Shown: one piece after another, positions 18,076 through 37,822 of the stretch
Numbering within the stretch: the first letter of the stretch is position 1
Layout: each line of letters begins with the position of its first letter
NCBI RefSeq assembly: GCF_021172045.1
Contig: NZ_CP087164.1
Location: 3,348,001-3,412,000, forward strand
DNA length: 64,000 nucleotides
Source of the DNA: Capillimicrobium parvum
GTDB taxonomy: Bacteria > Actinomycetota > Thermoleophilia > Solirubrobacterales > Solirubrobacteraceae
Direction of reading: 5' to 3'
Position numbers and translations under genes: made by a program
The notes under the pieces: generated by a model
What the model was told of the DNA's origin: nothing
The model's input: the letters and a program-made list of their open reading frames with translations, nothing else
Database searches by the model: none

Positions 18076-19230
18076 TCAGGCCGCCGGAGCGGGCGCGGCC
18101 GGCGCCACCGGCCCGACCGGGTCCTTCACCGTGCGCCGGCGCACCATCTCGACGTCGACGACCGCGACGATGACGAGCAGGAGCGCCGCGATGGCGGTCC
18201 GGATGCCCGGGATGACGCCGATCGCCAGCAGCGCGAGCAGCACGGCCAGCACCGCGCCGTGGACCATCTCGGGCCGCGCCAGCAGGGCCGGGCGCAGGAA
18301 CGTCCGGATCCGCAGCGCGAGGCGCGACGGGCCCGACAGCCAGGCCCCGAGCAGGAGCAGCAGCGCGAGCAGCAGGAGCGTGCGCGCGATCTTGGCCAGC
18401 AGGGACGTCCCGATGGCGAACGCCGAGTCCGCCGCAGCCTGCCCGGTGGACGTGTTCGCCAGGTCGCCGATGACCTGGTTGCCCAGCACGCGGCGCAAGA
18501 GCAGCACCACGATCGCCGCCACGATGAGCGACAGCGCGGCCGCGGCCGTGATCTCCCGCCGGTGGCCGCGGGCCAGCCAGATCGCGATGCCGAGCAGGAC
18601 GAGCGCGAGCAGGAACAGCACGATCGCGAGCGTCTTGAGCAGCTTGACGACCGTCCGCATGGCGTCGAGCTGCTGCGCGTCCATGATCTTGATGACCCCG
18701 GCGCTCTCCGGCAGCCGCGAGCCGTCGATCGGCAGCCCGAGCTGGTCGCCCACCAGCGCGATGAGCGGGCGCACGTCGAGGACCACCGCGTCGCCGTTCT
18801 CGCGGATCGCCCGGCTCTCGTTGTTGACCAGCGCGATGAACTGGTCGTGCGTGATCGACGCGGCCTTGGCCCAGAGCACCTGCAGCCGCGGCGCGTCGAG
18901 CAGCTTCTCGACGGCCCGGACGGCGGGCTCGCGCAGCGCGCCCGCGGCCGGCGCGGCGAGCGGCTGCAGCCGCGGCGGGAGCGCGTCGCGCAGCTTCGCG
19001 GCCGGGTCGGCGTTGGTGTAGACCTGATCGACGAGGTAGGTCGCGAGCGCCGTGTGGATCGAGTCGTCGGCGATGAGCGCCTGCGTCGTCTGATCCCAGT
19101 TGTCCTTCTCGAGGAGCTGGCGCGCCGTCCAGACCGCGAAGATGGCCAGGATCGCCACGATCGCCCCGGCGACGAGCAGTCCGTAGATCGCGGCGCGGCG
19201 GCCTCGGGAGAGCTGCATGGCGCCCATCAT
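18076..19230 (-). CDS. Actinobacterial multi-span membrane protein of unknown function
   Basis: A 384-residue protein with one N-terminal membrane span (about 13-35), a roughly 165-residue external or cytosolic helical domain, and four more spans (about 208-228, 236-255, 285-305 and 325-355). The extracellular-type domain contains DNWDQTTQALIADDSIHTAL and YLVDQVY, a pattern repeated in uncharacterised actinobacterial membrane proteins. Two ATGs, at 19230 and 19218, compete as starts. It is the first gene of the unit leading to AACS. No function can be assigned. Confidence 0.7.
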   Translation of the reverse strand: MMGAMQLSRGRRAAIYGLLVAGAIVAILAIFAVWTARQLLEKDNWDQTTQALIADDSIHTALATYLVDQVYTNADPAAKLRDALPPRLQPLAAPAAGALREPAVRAVEKLLDAPRLQVLWAKAASITHDQFIALVNNESRAIRENGDAVVLDVRPLIALVGDQLGLPIDGSRLPESAGVIKIMDAQQLDAMRTVVKLLKTLAIVLFLLALVLLGIAIWLARGHRREITAAAALSLIVAAIVVLLLRRVLGNQVIGDLANTSTGQAAADSAFAIGTSLLAKIARTLLLLALLLLLGAWLSGPSRLALRIRTFLRPALLARPEMVHGAVLAVLLALLAIGVIPGIRTAIAALLLVIVAVVDVEMVRRRTVKDPVGPVAPAAPAPAA

Positions 19231-19306
19231 CTCCGCCGCACCGGCGGCACGGCAATCGTGGGCGCATGCCTGTCGCGCAGGTGCCCGCGCCGTTTACCCT
19301 GGCCGC

Positions 19307-20056
19307 GTGCAACCGGACCGCCTGACCTGGCTCGGGCACGCGACCGTGCTTATCGAGCTGGGCGGCGTGCGTCTGCTGACCGATCCGGTGCTGCGCTCGC
19401 GCGTCGCGCACCTGCGCCGCCACGCCCCGCCGGCGCCGGCGACCGGCGAGCTCGACGCCGTGCTCGTCTCCCACGCGCACCGCGACCACCTCGACGTGCC
19501 GAGCCTGCGCGGTCTGCGCCCGGCACCGCGCGAGCTCGTCGTGCCGCCCGGCGTCGGGCGCATCGTGCGCGGCAAGACGGGCGCGCACGTGCAGGAGCTG
19601 CCCGCGGGCGGCGCGCTCGACGTCGGCGCGGCGCGCGTCCTCGCGGTGCCCGCGGTGCACGACACCCGGCGCAGCCCGGTCTCCGGCGCCTCGGAAGCGG
19701 TGGGCTTCGTCGTCGAGGCGGCCGGCCGGCGCGTCTACTTCGCCGGCGACACGTCCGTGTTCGACGGCATGAGCGACCTCGGCCCGCTCGACGTCGCGCT
19801 GCTGCCGATCTGGGGCTGGGGCCCGTCGCTCGGGCCCGGCCACATGGATCCGGGCGAGGCGGTCGATGCGCTCGAGCTGCTGCGTCCGGAGGTCGCCGTG
19901 CCGATCCACTGGGGCACGCTGCTGCCCATCGGTCTGCGGCGCCGCCACGGGCACGTCCTGCGCGCCCCGCTCGAGGCCTTCGTGCGCGGCGCCGGCGAGC
20001 GCTGCCCGGACGTGCGCCTCGCCGTCCTCGACCCCGGCGGCCAGGTCGCGCTGTGA
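19307..20056 (+). CDS. MBL-fold metal-dependent hydrolase (UlaG-like)
   Basis: A 249-residue metallo-beta-lactamase-fold protein from the GTG at 19307. It opens TWLGHATVLIELGGVRLLTD, as in UlaG and NAPE-PLD-type lactonases, and has the metal motif SHAHRDHLD, further ligands in VPAVHDT, FAGDT and PIHWGT. It probably acts as a lactonase or phosphodiesterase with two metal ions. A longer reading from 19217 would overlap the divergent gene. Its TGA overlaps the GTG of the next gene by 4 bases (GTGA), so expression is coupled. The substrate is unknown. Confidence 0.85.
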   Translation: MQPDRLTWLGHATVLIELGGVRLLTDPVLRSRVAHLRRHAPPAPATGELDAVLVSHAHRDHLDVPSLRGLRPAPRELVVPPGVGRIVRGKTGAHVQELPAGGALDVGAARVLAVPAVHDTRRSPVSGASEAVGFVVEAAGRRVYFAGDTSVFDGMSDLGPLDVALLPIWGWGPSLGPGHMDPGEAVDALELLRPEVAVPIHWGTLLPIGLRRRHGHVLRAPLEAFVRGAGERCPDVRLAVLDPGGQVAL

Positions 20057-22227
20057 TCCGCCGCGCGCTCGTCACGGTCGTCGTCTCGACGCTGGCGCTG
20101 CTCGTGCTCAACGCGATCCTGCCCGGCTTCCACGTCGACACGATCGGCGCGGCCGTCGGCGCGGCGGTCGTCTGCGCGGTCCTCAACGCGCTCGTCTGGC
20201 CGCTGGTCATCCGCTTCGCCCTGCCGATCACCGTGCTCACACTCGGCGGCGCGGTGCTCCTGCTCAACGGGCTCGTGGTCCTCGCCGCCGCGTGGATCGT
20301 CCCGGGCGTCCACGTCGATGACATCTGGACCGCCATCGCGGTGACGTTCGGACTGACGGCTGCGAGCACCCTCGCGGGCTCCGCGGCGGCGATCGACGAC
20401 GAGGGCCGCGTGCGCCGCCACCTGCGCCGCCACGCGCCGGCCGGCCGCGGCGACGACGGCGTCCCCGGCGTCCTCTTCCTCGAGATCGACGGCCTCGCCC
20501 ACGAGGTCCTCGTCCGCGCCCTGCGCGACGGCAACGCGCCCACGCTCTCGCGCTGGCTGCGCGACGGCAGCCACCGGCTGGTGCGGTGGGAGACCGACTG
20601 GTCGTCGCAGACCGGCGCCTGCCAGGCCGGGCTGCTGCACGGCGACAACGACGACATGCCCGCCTTCCGCTGGTGGGAGAAGGAGCACGGGCGCGCGATC
20701 GTCACGAACCACCCGCGCGACGCGGCCGAGATCGAGCGGCGGATCTCCGACGGCCGCGGCCTCCTGCACGCCGACGGCGCGAGCCGGGCGAACATCCTCT
20801 CCGGCGACGCCCCGCACTCGCTCCTGACGATGAGCACCGTGATGCAGCTGCGCCGGCCGGGCAGCCGGCTCGGCGAGGACTACGCCGCGTACTTCTCGAG
20901 CCCGTACAACCTCGCGCACACGGTGCTCGCCTCGATCGCGCACGTCGCGCGCGAGCTGCGCGCGGCCGCGGAGCAGCGCCACCTCGACGTGCAGCCGCGC
21001 ATCCGCCGCACGCTGGGCTACGCCCCGGTCCGCGCGTGGGCGACGGCGGTCCAGCGCGACCTGCAGGTGGCGGCGGTCGTCGCCGACGCCCATGCCGGCC
21101 GGCCCGTCGTGTACACGACGTTCCTCGCCTACGACGAGGTCGCCCACCACTCCGGGATCGAGCGCAGCGACACGCTCGCGGTGCTGCGCGACGTCGACCG
21201 CCAGATCGGGCGGATCGCCGCGGCCGCCGCCGCGGCGTCGCGCCCGTACGAGATCGTCGTCCTGTCCGACCACGGCCAGACCCAGGGCGCGACGTTCCGC
21301 GACCGCTACGGGCAGACGCTCGAAGGGCTGGTCCGGGCGACGTGCCGGACGGAGAGCGTCGCCGCGGAGGGATCCGGCGAGGACGAGGCGCTGGGGCGCA
21401 TGGGCGCCGCGCTGACCGAGGCCGCCTCGGGCACGGGCCTGGCCGCGCGGACGGTGCGCGGGGTGACCCGGCGCCGGCAGGTCGACGGCGAGGTGCGGCT
21501 CGGTGCCCGAGCGCCCGCGGACGGCGACAGCGCCGGCGAGGTGCGGCTCGGTGCCCGAGCGCCCGCGGACGGCGACAGCGCCGGCGAGGTGCGGCTCGGT
21601 GCCCGAGCGCCCGCGGACGGCGACGGCGACGGCGACCGGGACGAGGACGGGGGCCGTCCCGCGCTGCCCGCCGCGCCCGAGCCGCCGCCCGAGATCGTCG
21701 TCATGGCGTCCGGCTGCCTCGGGCTCATCACCTTCCCGCGCATCCCCGGCCGCGCGACGCGCCAGCAGATCGACGAGCGCTACCCCGACCTGCTGCCGAC
21801 CCTGCGCGCGCACCCCGGCATCGGCTTCGTCCACGTGCGCTGCGCCGAGCACGGCGCGCTCGTCCTCGGGCCGCGCGGCAGGTGCCGGCTGCACTCCGGC
21901 GAGGTCGAGGGCGAGGACCCGCTCGCGCCGTTCGGCCCCAACGCCGCCGCCCACGTCCTGCGCACGGACGGCTTCGCACACTGCCCGGACATCCTCGTCA
22001 ACAGCACCTACTGGCCGGAGACCGGCGAGGTCGCCGCCTTCGAGGAGCTCGTTGGCTCGCACGGCGGGATGGGCGGCCCGCAGGCCTATCCGTTCATCCT
22101 GGCGCCCGCCGGGTGGGCGCTGCCCGGCGAGGAGGTCGTCGGCGCCGAGCACATGCACCGATGGATGCGGCGCTGGCTAGCGGACCTCGGCCACGCGGCG
22201 TTCCGCGACGACGCCCACGATGCCTAG
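20053..22227 (+). CDS. Fusion of holin-4-like membrane domain and alkaline-phosphatase-superfamily phosphodiesterase
   Basis: A 724-residue protein starting at GTG 20053. Residues 1-115 hold four membrane spans of the PhageHol_4_2 type (LNALVWPLVIRFALPITVLT is diagnostic). Residues about 140-480 and 545-724 resemble a type I phosphodiesterase/nucleotide pyrophosphatase: FLEIDGLAHEVL, YDEVAHHSG and VVLSDHGQTQG carry the expected metal-ligand Asp/His residues. Between the halves is an insert with three copies of a 16-residue repeat (GEVRLGARAPADGDSA). Similar fusions occur in actinobacteria; the holin part is a membrane anchor here, not phage lysis. Likely substrates are nucleotides, lipids or envelope polymers. 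Confidence 0.85.
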   Translation: MIRRALVTVVVSTLALLVLNAILPGFHVDTIGAAVGAAVVCAVLNALVWPLVIRFALPITVLTLGGAVLLLNGLVVLAAAWIVPGVHVDDIWTAIAVTFGLTAASTLAGSAAAIDDEGRVRRHLRRHAPAGRGDDGVPGVLFLEIDGLAHEVLVRALRDGNAPTLSRWLRDGSHRLVRWETDWSSQTGACQAGLLHGDNDDMPAFRWWEKEHGRAIVTNHPRDAAEIERRISDGRGLLHADGASRANILSGDAPHSLLTMSTVMQLRRPGSRLGEDYAAYFSSPYNLAHTVLASIAHVARELRAAAEQRHLDVQPRIRRTLGYAPVRAWATAVQRDLQVAAVVADAHAGRPVVYTTFLAYDEVAHHSGIERSDTLAVLRDVDRQIGRIAAAAAAASRPYEIVVLSDHGQTQGATFRDRYGQTLEGLVRATCRTESVAAEGSGEDEALGRMGAALTEAASGTGLAARTVRGVTRRRQVDGEVRLGARAPADGDSAGEVRLGARAPADGDSAGEVRLGARAPADGDGDGDRDEDGGRPALPAAPEPPPEIVVMASGCLGLITFPRIPGRATRQQIDERYPDLLPTLRAHPGIGFVHVRCAEHGALVLGPRGRCRLHSGEVEGEDPLAPFGPNAAAHVLRTDGFAHCPDILVNSTYWPETGEVAAFEELVGSHGGMGGPQAYPFILAPAGWALPGEEVVGAEHMHRWMRRWLADLGHAAFRDDAHDA
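21487..21630 (+). repeat. Three tandem 48-bp repeats inside the phosphodiesterase gene
   Basis: Units begin at 21487, 21535 and 21583. The first two are identical and the third matches for about 42 bases before passing into a GGCGAC run. Each codes for 16 residues in frame, so copy-number change lengthens the loop without a frameshift. Confidence 0.9.
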
Positions 22228-22236
22228 CCTGAGGAC

Positions 22237-22479
22237 ATGCGCCTGGCCAGCGTCCTCGTCGGCGACATCGTCCTCGTCAACCGCAAGGGCCGCGTGTTCC
22301 ACGCGCTCGTGACCGGCATCGAGCTGCGCGGCCTCGGCATCGAGCCGATCGACAAGCGCGTGACCTATCGGCAGTGCAGCGCCCACGACGTCGTCGGCCA
22401 CTGGGCGCGGCGCGGGCGCCCGCAGGCCGGCGACGAGGAGCTGCGGCCCACCGAGGCGCAGCTGTCCCTCGGCGTATGA
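22237..22479 (+). CDS. Small protein of unknown function coupled to SNF2 helicase
   Basis: An 80-residue protein with a beta-rich N-terminal half (LVGDIVLVNRKGRVFHALVT) resembling a small barrel and a charged C-terminal half. GAGGAC lies just upstream of the ATG. It starts 9 bases after the phosphodiesterase stop and its TGA overlaps the helicase ATG (ATGA), so the reading is well supported as a gene. I recognise no family. Coupling suggests it may work with the helicase, but nothing in its sequence shows how. Confidence 0.65.
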   Translation: MRLASVLVGDIVLVNRKGRVFHALVTGIELRGLGIEPIDKRVTYRQCSAHDVVGHWARRGRPQAGDEELRPTEAQLSLGV

Positions 22480-24632
22480 AGCTCGCCGAGCCGGCGTACA
22501 ACGTCGAGCTGCGCGAGCGCCCGGAGCGCGGGCGCATCGTCGTGCTGTCGTTCCCGTACCGGTCGGACATCGTCGACGCCGTGCGGGCGATCCCCGGCCG
22601 CCGCTTCGACTGGGACGTGCGCGAGTGGTGGGCGCCCGCGGACGACTGGGCGGGCGCGCACGTCGCCGAGATCGTCAAGCGCTTCCCGCATCTGCGCGTC
22701 GCCGCGGACGCCGCCGTGTGGCTCGACGGCCTCGGCGAGCGCTGGATCGGCCGCGTCACCACCGGCCGGCACGAGGGCCGCGGATGGTTCATCTGCGAGA
22801 CGCGCGCGGGGACGCTGCCCGACTCGCTCGCCGCCCGTGCCGTCGTCCAGGGCGCCCACCACCGGCTCCCGCTCGAGCCCGATGTGGCCGAGGCGCTCGG
22901 CGAGCTGCCATCCGCCCGGATGGACCCGCGCGCCGCGGACTGCGCGAGCCGGCTGCAGGTGGGTCTGCCGCCGCCGCCGGCGATGATCGCGCTCGCCACG
23001 GGCGTCACGGGCGACCGCCTGCGCCTCGACGTGCTCTGGGACCAGTCGGCGGCGATCGCGTTCGCCGAGCTGCCCGGGGTCGAGGGAGCGAGCCGGACGC
23101 TGCCGGTGGACCCGTGGGTCGTGCCCGCGATCGACCGCTTCGTGCGCGATCACGGCGTCGAGGTCGGGGGGCGCGCGCGTCCGGTCCTCGAGGCGCTGCG
23201 CCGCGAGCACGATGCCGCCATGGCCGCGGTCGACCGTTCGCGCGCGACCGACGGCCCGCCGTTGGATCCGTCGGTGCGCCTCGGGGGCACGCTCGAGCCG
23301 TTCCAGCGCGCCGGGGTCCAGTACGTGCTCGACGCGCGCCGTACGTTCCTCGCCGACGAGCAGGGCCTCGGCAAGACGGTGCAGGCGCTCGCCGCCCTCG
23401 AGGCCGACGAGGCGTTCCCGGCGGTCGTCGTCTGCCCGGCCTCGCTCAAGCTCAACTGGGAGCGCGAGGCGCAGCGCTGGCTGCCGCACCGGACGCGCAC
23501 CGTCGTCTCCGGCCGCGGCGGCGTCGCCGCGAGCGCGGACATCACGATCCTCAACTACGAGATCGTCGAGGCGCACACCGACCGGCTGCGCCTGCGCCGC
23601 CCGCGGGCGCTCGTCGTCGACGAGTCGCACCTCGTCAAGAACCCCCGGGCGAAGCGCACGCGGGCGGTCCGCCGCCTCGCCGACGCCGTCGCGCCCGACG
23701 GGCTCAAGCTCGCGCTGACGGGCACGCCGGTGATGAACCACCCCGACGAGCTCATCGCCCAACTGCGGGTCATCGACCGCCTGTCGGACTTCGGCAGCGG
23801 TGCGCGCTTCAGCCAGCGCTTCCGCGGCGGGCACGGCGCCGAGGAGCGCCTGCACTGGCATCTGCGCCGCCACTGCTTCGCCCGGCGCCTGAAGAGCGAG
23901 GTCCTGCCGCAACTGCCGGCCAAGCGCCGCACGGTCGTGCCGGTCGCATTGACCAACGAGGACGAGTACCGCCTGGCCGAGCGCGACGTCATCGCCTGGC
24001 TGCAGTCGCTGCCGCTCGACCTCCAGGAGCTCGATGCCAAGGTGGCGGCGGCGCGGCGCGCCGAGCGGCTCGCCCAGCTCAACGCGCTCAAGCGCATCGC
24101 CGCGCGCGGCAAGCTCGCCGCCGCCCTGAGCTGGATCGGCGACTTCCTCGCCTCGGAGGAGCCGCTCGTCGTCTTCGCCCACCACACCGACGTGCAGGAG
24201 GCGGTCCTCGCGCGCTTCCCGGAGGCCGGGCACCTGCTCGGGCGCGACTCGGGCCCCGCGCGCGACGCCACCGTGCGGGCCTTCCAGCAGCCGGCGGGCC
24301 CGCAGCTGCTCGTGTGCTCGACGCCCGTCGCCTCTCAGGGCATCACGCTGACGCGCGCGACGAACGTCTGCTTCCTCGAGCTCGAGTGGACGCCGGCGGT
24401 CCACGACCAGGCCGAGGACCGCGTGCACCGGATCGGCCAGCGCGACGCGGTGACGGCCTGGTACCTGCTCGCCGCGGACACGATCGACGAGACGATGGCC
24501 CGCCTGATCGAACGCAAGCGCGACCTGGTCGCGGCGGTGACCGACGGGCGCGAGCGCGACGCCGAGCCGCTCGTCGCGGCGGTGGCGCGCGAGCTGCGCC
24601 ACGCGCCGATCCGGCATCTCAAGGCGGTGTAG
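22476..24632 (+). CDS. SNF2-family helicase, HARP/SMARCAL1-like
   Basis: A 718-residue superfamily 2 DNA-dependent ATPase. The N-terminus has a HARP-like segment (RFDWDVREWWAP, about 44-55). The core has Walker A DEQGLGKTVQAL, motif II VVDESHLVKN, ALTGTPVMN, and in the second lobe LLVCSTPVASQGITLTRA with the arginine motif QAEDRVHRIGQRD. SMARCAL1-type enzymes anneal single-stranded DNA and remodel stalled forks. It is the last gene of the operon that starts with the metallo-hydrolase. The family is clear; a role in repair is inferred. No nuclease domain is attached. Confidence 0.9.
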   Translation: MKLAEPAYNVELRERPERGRIVVLSFPYRSDIVDAVRAIPGRRFDWDVREWWAPADDWAGAHVAEIVKRFPHLRVAADAAVWLDGLGERWIGRVTTGRHEGRGWFICETRAGTLPDSLAARAVVQGAHHRLPLEPDVAEALGELPSARMDPRAADCASRLQVGLPPPPAMIALATGVTGDRLRLDVLWDQSAAIAFAELPGVEGASRTLPVDPWVVPAIDRFVRDHGVEVGGRARPVLEALRREHDAAMAAVDRSRATDGPPLDPSVRLGGTLEPFQRAGVQYVLDARRTFLADEQGLGKTVQALAALEADEAFPAVVVCPASLKLNWEREAQRWLPHRTRTVVSGRGGVAASADITILNYEIVEAHTDRLRLRRPRALVVDESHLVKNPRAKRTRAVRRLADAVAPDGLKLALTGTPVMNHPDELIAQLRVIDRLSDFGSGARFSQRFRGGHGAEERLHWHLRRHCFARRLKSEVLPQLPAKRRTVVPVALTNEDEYRLAERDVIAWLQSLPLDLQELDAKVAAARRAERLAQLNALKRIAARGKLAAALSWIGDFLASEEPLVVFAHHTDVQEAVLARFPEAGHLLGRDSGPARDATVRAFQQPAGPQLLVCSTPVASQGITLTRATNVCFLELEWTPAVHDQAEDRVHRIGQRDAVTAWYLLAADTIDETMARLIERKRDLVAAVTDGRERDAEPLVAAVARELRHAPIRHLKAV

Positions 24633-36716: not shown

Positions 36717-36813
36717 CGCGCGCCTCAGACTCGCCCACCCGCCGCCGTGCGCGCGCCTCAGACTCGGGCACCCACCGCCCTGCGCGCGCCTCAGACCCGC
36801 GCACCCACCGCTG
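36717..36813. repeat. Three 33-bp tandem repeats spanning a stop codon
   Basis: GCCTCAGAC recurs at 36722, 36755 and 36788, an exact 33-base period. The copy nearest the gene contains the last codons and TGA of the threonine aldolase, so the unit is the gene's own 3' end copied downstream. Units 1 and 2 match at 29 of 33 positions. The rest of the gap to 36617 shows nothing else. Confidence 0.85.
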
Positions 36814-37822
36814 TGCGGATCGCCTCGGCGAAGCCGTCGACCTCATCGGGCGTGGTGTCCCAGGCGCACATCCAGCGCACTTCGCCGGTCGCCGGGTCCC
36901 ACACGTAGAACGGCCACTGCTCCTGGACCTCGCGCGTGGCCGCCTCCGGCAGGATCGCGAAGACCGCATTGGCCTGGACCGCCTGGGTCACGGTCACGCC
37001 ATCGATGCCGGCGACCGCGCCCGCCAGCCGCGCCGCCATCGCGTTGGCATGCCCGGCGAGCTCACGCCACAGCTCGCCCTCCAGCAGCGCCGCGAGCTGC
37101 GCGGCCAGGAACCGCCCCTTCGAGGCCAGCTGGAGCGACTGCTTGCGCAGGTACGGCAGCGCGTCGGCGAGCTCGGGGCGCAGGACGACGACCGCCTCGG
37201 CCCCCAGCGCGCCGACCTTCGTCGCGCCGAACGAGACGAGGTCGACGCCGGCGTCCGTGGTGATCGCGGCCAGCGAGCAGTCCAGCGCGGCGGCCGCATG
37301 GCAGATCCGCGCGCCGTCGACGTGCAGGAGCAGGCCGCGCTCGTGAGCGGCGGCGGCGAGCGCGGCGATCTCCGCCGGGTCGTAGCGCGTGCCGAGCTCG
37401 GTGGTCTGCGAGATCGACACCAGCCCCGGCTGGGCCTGATGCTCGTCGCCCATCCGCACGCAGAGCCGCTCGACGTCGGCCGGGGTGAGCTTGCCGTCAG
37501 CCGCCGGCGCGGTGAGGAGCTTGACCCCCGCGATGCGCTCGGGGGCGCCGCCCTCGTCCACGTTGATGTGCGCCGTGTCCGTGCAGATGACCGCAGCCGC
37601 TGAACGGCACGCCGCGCGGATCGACAGCACGTTGGCCCCGGTGCCGTTGAACACCGCGAACGACCGGGCGTCCGCCCCGAAGGCGTCACGCAGCAGCGCC
37701 TCGGCCCGCGCGGTCCACGGGTCGGCCCCGTAGGCCCGGGCGTGGTCCTGGTTGGCGGCGCCGATCGCCTCGAGCACCGCCGGGTGCACGGCCGCGTAGT
37801 TGTCGCTGGCGAAGCTCTTCAC
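36791..37822 (-). CDS. Low-specificity L-threonine aldolase
   Basis: PLP enzyme that cleaves threonine/allo-threonine to glycine and acetaldehyde. The 343-residue protein from GTG 37822 has SDNYAAVHPAVLEAI near the N-terminus, FNGTGANVLSI, the PLP-ring segment HVDGARICHAAAAL with Asp169, and the Schiff-base Lys202 in SFGATKVGALG. It follows the DUF6421 gene by 22 bases. It may act on another beta-hydroxy amino acid. The 3' end has been copied downstream as 33-bp repeats. Confidence 0.9.
   Translation of the reverse strand: MKSFASDNYAAVHPAVLEAIGAANQDHARAYGADPWTARAEALLRDAFGADARSFAVFNGTGANVLSIRAACRSAAAVICTDTAHINVDEGGAPERIAGVKLLTAPAADGKLTPADVERLCVRMGDEHQAQPGLVSISQTTELGTRYDPAEIAALAAAAHERGLLLHVDGARICHAAAALDCSLAAITTDAGVDLVSFGATKVGALGAEAVVVLRPELADALPYLRKQSLQLASKGRFLAAQLAALLEGELWRELAGHANAMAARLAGAVAGIDGVTVTQAVQANAVFAILPEAATREVQEQWPFYVWDPATGEVRWMCAWDTTPDEVDGFAEAIRTAVGARV

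Follow-up and report, generated by a model that had tools for sequence, protein, structure and literature searches.

Gene structure and domain fusion

We analyzed a 64,000-nucleotide stretch of the Capillimicrobium parvum genome (contig NZ_CP087164.1, positions 3,348,001 to 3,412,000 of the forward strand), hereafter called the window, in which coordinates are counted from the first nucleotide. The gene of interest joins a four-span membrane domain to a domain that probably has an NPP fold, and its start overlaps the end of a gene for a metallo-β-lactamase (MBL)-fold hydrolase. For brevity, the product of the fused gene is called the phosphodiesterase below. The features of the two genes, and the evidence on which each is based, are as follows:

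20053..22227, plus strand: gene for a probable membrane-anchored phosphodiesterase of NPP fold, 724 amino acids (open frame, Pfam, model, fold match)
20053..20388, plus strand: four-span PF04020 domain, residues 1 to 112 (Pfam, charge count, model)
20467..22227, plus strand: catalytic domain, PF01663 and predicted NPP fold, residues 139 to 724 (Pfam, fold match, invariant residues)
21487..21630, plus strand: three in-frame 48-nucleotide repeats (Tandem Repeats Finder (TRF), unit alignment, predicted local distance difference test (pLDDT) values)
19217..20056, plus strand: MBL-fold hydrolase whose best solved relative is NAPE-PLD (GTGA overlap with the phosphodiesterase start)

The phosphodiesterase frame is open over 724 residues from 20053 to 22227 on the plus strand, and a frameshift was looked for and not found there, which agrees with an earlier note on this DNA that had described the two domains as fused. 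The third-position G+C of the frame is 0.97 and 0.99 before the repeats and 0.97 after them, values consistent with coding sequence on either side of the array. Its GTG start codon at 20053 shares bases with the TGA stop of the upstream MBL open reading frame (ORF; 19217 to 20056), and this start/stop overlap at 20053 to 20056 is the GTGA coupling that the same note had pointed out. Also as described there, the N terminus carries a four-span PhageHol_4_2-type domain, with a Pfam match to PF04020 at residues 4 to 106 (E 3.2e-22; 79.6 bits versus a cut-off of 28.8) that covers positions 2 to 104 of the 105 in the profile. The remainder of the protein matches PF01663 at residues 140 to 413 (E 4.7e-9; 36.7 bits versus a curated cut-off of 23). 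Together with TRF and the unit alignment, this match bears out an alkaline-phosphatase-superfamily domain with three in-frame 16-residue repeats, two of them identical at the DNA level.

A contig scan for the phosphodiesterase returned 74 loci, to which more were added from four genomes of the genus and 81 of the family. Matches were retained as full length if they ran from query residue 12 or earlier to residue 688 or later with more than 250 bits, and duplicates of the same gene were dropped. The resulting 72 distinct relatives, which are 33 to 75% identical to the window protein, were aligned with it. All 73 members match both Pfam families (PF01663 at E 0.01 or better), partly by selection through the full-length filter. 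A domain search for the same fusion had been suggested in the earlier note, and because 72 distinct full-length relatives share the PF04020–PF01663 arrangement, it is not a local oddity.

These relatives come from Solirubrobacterales, other Thermoleophilia, Acidimicrobiia, Nocardiaceae, Nocardioidaceae, Actinomadura, and Geodermatophilus, and a few are from Chloroflexota, Dormibacterota, and others. The full gene is present in three of the four genus genomes, the window's included, and the fourth (G003) matches weakly, in the membrane domain alone. Of 296 genomes drawn evenly across the phylum, 15 match the phosphodiesterase at E 1e-60 or better, and eight of the 15 are from one genus (g63) with genomes of 7 to 10 Mb. 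The fusion thus has a broad but patchy distribution, occurring in many Actinobacteria with this large-genome genus among them. Two further copies with short loops are encoded in the window's own genome (C1:4358943-4360856 and 5233578-5235482), and no nameable partner was recognized among the composition-filtered ORFs around them. Among the matches listed in a literature search, there was no account of the PF04020–PF01663 fusion or of the gene module described below.

Predicted fold, active site, and membrane topology

An AlphaFold2 model of the phosphodiesterase has a mean pLDDT of 88.4 and a pTM of 0.89. The catalytic part of this predicted structure is most similar to Xac NPP from Xanthomonas (7n1s_A; Z 22.8, root mean square deviation 3.1, 329 aligned residues), with which the window protein has 18% sequence identity. 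ENPP4-7, ENPP1, ENPP3, and autotaxin come next, no more than about two Z units lower, many of them tied; among the matches listed, Z values span 20.5 to 22.8, and ENPP1 with 3'3'-cGAMP is included. A sequence search of the PDB with the single protein returned nothing at E 1.

Seven residues (D146, T187, D361, H365, D406, H407, and H670) are invariant in all 73 members. When profiles are compared, D361/H365 and D406/H407 fall on the DE..H and DHG motifs of NPP, whereas D146 aligns only in a weak stretch of -0.9 bits, and the roles of T187 and H670 were assigned from the superfamily pattern. By this analogy, Thr187 would serve as the nucleophile, and metals would be bound by D146, D361, H365, D406, H407, and H670. 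The catalytic domain probably has the NPP fold, and the protein is probably a metal-dependent phosphodiesterase belonging to the alkaline phosphatase (NPP) superfamily. The PF04020 spans and the fold match together uphold the earlier description of an anchored protein with a phosphodiesterase fold. Although the predicted catalytic fold and the aligned motifs resemble those of Xac NPP and ENPP1-7, the window protein differs from these enzymes in its four-span anchor, its predicted cytoplasmic side, a disordered insertion, and further invariant residues (F205, R206, W207, and the G671-Q677 region).

The presence of four spans places the N terminus and the catalytic domain on the same side of the membrane. 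With span limits set by hand from the window protein, Lys and Arg residues average 10.2 on the catalytic side (3.2 at the N terminus, 1.0 in loop 2, and 5.9 in the tail) versus 0.9 on the other. Positive charge is higher on the side of the catalytic domain in 73 of 73 members, or in 69 of 73 when the tail is not counted, with one member lower. This distribution predicts that the catalytic domain faces the cytoplasm in every member. We infer this topology by the charge rule, just as we infer the catalytic roles of the invariant residues. As a caveat to the topology, the catalytic domain of some members contains a fairly hydrophobic stretch (19-residue averages of up to 2.3, with a median of maxima of 1.6), which we take to be a buried part of the folded domain.

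Many membrane-anchored enzymes of the alkaline phosphatase superfamily, such as LtaS and the ENPPs, work outside the cell. An outward-facing phosphodiesterase whose substrate is an envelope polymer and whose repeats form a variable surface loop would accord with this precedent, and the hydrophobic stretch just described makes an extra span conceivable in some members. However, the four spans and the charge count point inward in all 73 members, which would set the window protein apart from LtaS-like polymer enzymes with their external catalytic domains. Moreover, a hydrophobic N-terminal extension (>1.6) is found in none of the 73, and the repeats occur in only one. We consider an outward-facing enzyme improbable. 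Because the charge count predicts an internal catalytic domain, the surface position of the loop and the envelope-polymer substrate proposed in the earlier note are both left unsupported.

Pfam names PF04020 '4 TMS phage holin', which could be read as pointing to a genuine holin that carries an enzyme domain and acts in lysis. Yet a search of 50,697 phage records gave no match to the phosphodiesterase at E 0.001, and a PHROGs search gave no family at E 0.01. Since no phage record matches, 'holin' is merely a family name for this protein, the holin role suggested by the earlier description is unsupported, and a function in lysis is hardly credible. The N-terminal domain is similar to PF04020 proteins such as YvlD, DUF360, and '4 TMS phage holin'. 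YvlD and similar proteins stand alone, unlike the enzyme-fused window protein, and weak stand-alone PF04020 matches were also found in the family-genome search. One report discusses YvlD as a component of a Psp-like stress operon (PMC12791056), which also counts against a holin.

Recurrent gene neighbors and a candidate function

The best solved sequence relative of the MBL protein is NAPE-PLD (E 8e-17, residues 35 to 236), and the HxHxDH motif common to the two is present in its translation as HAHRDH. In contrast to NAPE-PLD, the partner is a bacterial protein, and it also matches phrog_392, a 'metal-dependent hydrolase' (E 4.1e-6). A defense library gave nothing for the phosphodiesterase or the MBL protein. 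An MBL gene is located within 1.5 kb of the phosphodiesterase at 30 of the 72 relatives' loci in four arrangements: upstream on the same strand (10), downstream on the same strand (7), downstream on the opposite strand (11), and upstream on the opposite strand (2). Where the sequence extends 1.5 kb or more to either side of the phosphodiesterase (44 loci), the MBL gene is present in 21. The background for these counts is low, with two MBL matches in the 5.95 Mb genome of the window and one to five in each of 30 other genomes.

Apart from the window's genome, 34 genomes carry the phosphodiesterase, and 32 of these were checked for MBL (G017 and G040 were left out). MBL is present in 30 of the 32, and by hand count 22 of these 30 have their best MBL match no more than 2.3 kb from a phosphodiesterase. 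Among the 81 family genomes (phosphodiesterase at E 1e-70, MBL at E 1e-40), 21 have both genes, 1 has only the phosphodiesterase, 4 have only MBL, and 55 have neither (Fisher p 1.9e-14). The genome with only the phosphodiesterase (G017) is 64% complete. The four with only MBL are G034, G054, G060, and G078, and in G078 the MBL gene is at a contig start. In G054, a phosphodiesterase remnant lies beside MBL (G054:C13:187192-188314), with matches to residues 3 to 61 and 661 to 724 in nearby frames, which represents a deletion or an assembly fault.

A second recurrent neighbor, which we call mem384, lies beside the MBL gene in the window:

18076..19230, minus strand: mem384, a membrane protein without a Pfam family, recurrent neighbor of the phosphodiesterase family

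This gene is within 1.5 kb of the phosphodiesterase at 14 of 72 loci, distant species included, and has one match in the window's genome. The window's mem384 protein matches no Pfam family at E 1, its structure model is middling (pLDDT 75) and retrieved nothing from Foldseek at E 0.001 or better, and the protein has a weak match in the defense library (E 0.0088). A third neighbor, a DedA-type gene of the VTT family, surfaced when neighboring ORFs were clustered, although the clusters were otherwise swamped by GC-rich shadow frames. It is found within 1.5 kb at 4 of 72 loci, and at 26 of the 44 fully flanked loci at least one of MBL, mem384, and VTT is present. The VTT gene accompanies MBL and the phosphodiesterase at L039, L070, L072, and L076 and in four of eight further regions (L142, L143, L144, and L149); its Pfam check was made on the L072 protein. 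In those four further regions, all from one large-genome genus, a second MBL gene lies beyond the DedA-type gene, which is thus placed between two MBL genes. DedA proteins are described as undecaprenyl-phosphate or putative phospholipid flippases (PMC10127716); this source and a lipocone paper (PMC12419801) serve as background only.

For a membrane-held, cytoplasm-facing NPP enzyme with MBL and DedA partners, a likely kind of substrate is a phosphodiester located in the inner leaflet or on it. In the mechanism we propose, the four-span PF04020 domain would keep the phosphodiesterase at the membrane's cytoplasmic face, and the enzyme would work in a conserved actinobacterial module with the NAPE-PLD-related MBL hydrolase, to which some lineages may add the DedA-type protein and mem384. 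Its job would be to cleave a membrane-linked phosphodiester, either a phospholipid head group or a polyprenyl-phosphate-linked compound, at the inner leaflet, and the MBL enzyme would act on the same or the next substrate. Combined with an origin of the repeats by slippage (see below), this is a tentative proposal to which we give slightly less than an even chance, and the choice of a lipid-linked rather than a soluble substrate is a guess. More doubtful is a broader version, in which an undescribed conserved actinobacterial module for lipid handling would remodel or recycle an inner-leaflet phosphodiester, either a phospholipid or a polyprenyl-linked compound; DedA and mem384 would then serve in membrane transport or as scaffolds. 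The MBL pairing gives two uncharacterized enzymes a testable assignment together, and it offers the PF04020 domain a possible role that is not that of a holin.

Several observations weigh against this proposal. NPP relatives cleave both nucleotides and lipids, and their Z values are tied; thus the fold does not pick the substrate. For the MBL protein, UPF0173 hydrolases, whose role is obscure, come next after NAPE-PLD (E 3.5e-14). No MBL gene is within 1.5 kb at 42 of 72 loci (some because of short flanks) or at 23 of the 44 with full flanks. The best MBL match is elsewhere in 8 of 30 genomes (G013, G033, G047, G049, G061, G070, G072, and G337), on a different contig of a draft or multi-contig genome in seven and far off on the same contig in G033; G111 and G315 had no MBL match at the threshold searched. 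Both additional phosphodiesterase copies of the window's genome are far from its two MBL matches, and the Fisher p value is uncorrected for relatedness. Finally, few lineages were seen to have the DedA-type gene, whose scores against DedA/UptA models fall well short of the cut-offs.

The strongest competing explanation is a membrane-tethered, cytoplasm-facing phosphodiesterase for nucleotides or cyclic dinucleotides that would work in the manner of AtaC, an actinobacterial type I phosphodiesterase of the same broad family that is reported to degrade c-di-AMP (PMC10117811). A diadenylate cyclase domain is encoded in the window's genome, the top fold matches include Xac NPP and ENPP1 with 3'3'-cGAMP, and the predicted cytoplasmic side would suit such a substrate. 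AtaC presumably has no such membrane domain, unlike the window protein. Furthermore, the recurrent partner is a NAPE-PLD-like MBL, no nucleotide signaling gene was recognized at these loci, and other PF01663 proteins above the cut-off in the genome could do the job. We regard a nucleotide substrate as unlikely on balance, while noting that the sequence cannot decide between the lipid and nucleotide alternatives.

The repeat array and the downstream genes

TRF reports the array with a period of 48, 3.1 copies, 98% matches, and a score of 286, the highest among 53 tandem rows in the window (the next is 160). Units 1 and 2 are identical at 48 of 48 nucleotides, and unit 3 agrees at 46 of 48. They encode residues 479 to 494, 495 to 510, and 511 to 526, located in a loop between two conserved motifs, DHG (residue 406) and SG (residue 553). 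This loop has 70 to 110 residues in the 72 relatives and 147 in the window protein, and its variable length, foreseen in the earlier note, is thereby borne out between species. In the tree, there are four changes between short (79 residues or fewer) and long loops, and the window protein groups with two orthologs from its genus (SH-aLRT 99).

Among the 73 members, the array is found in the window protein alone, and the loops of the other 72 aligned members contain no repeated six-residue word. In both same-genus orthologs the start of the unit is present once (EGEVRL and DGEVLL), so that slippage starting from one copy is the most likely origin of the array. In the AlphaFold2 model, pLDDT is below 50 at residues 490 to 529 and averages 70 over the block 481 to 490, so that the array is predicted to be mostly disordered. 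Most likely, the repeats are a recent, ordinary slippage expansion of a floppy, fast-changing loop; in a disordered loop they would need no function, and they are themselves of little importance.

A functional length switch kept by selection could be advanced on the grounds that the unit is in frame (16 residues) and that loop length in the family is spread widely, from 70 to 147 residues. We see little chance of this because the repeats occur in only one of 73 members, the unit grows from a motif found once in the same-genus orthologs, and the array is mostly disordered in the model. A dispersed repeat element was also considered and rejected: look-alikes of the repeat DNA elsewhere in the genome are weak (80 to 84% over about 40 bases, 74 to 75% over about 80 to 100) and were taken as chance in GC-rich DNA. 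A second strong tandem array in the window is located at 36717 to 36817 (period 33, 3.1 copies, score 160).

Two further genes follow the phosphodiesterase:

22237..22479, plus strand: 80-amino-acid ORF between the phosphodiesterase and the helicase
22476..24632, plus strand: SNF2-type helicase (Pfam)

The earlier note had the gene leading to a helicase. An SNF2-type helicase does follow, but the 80-amino-acid ORF intervenes, and its stop is overlapped by the helicase ATG at 22476. Among the 149 loci searched, the helicase and this ORF are beside the phosphodiesterase only in this genus, and we judge that the helicase is not part of the phosphodiesterase module.
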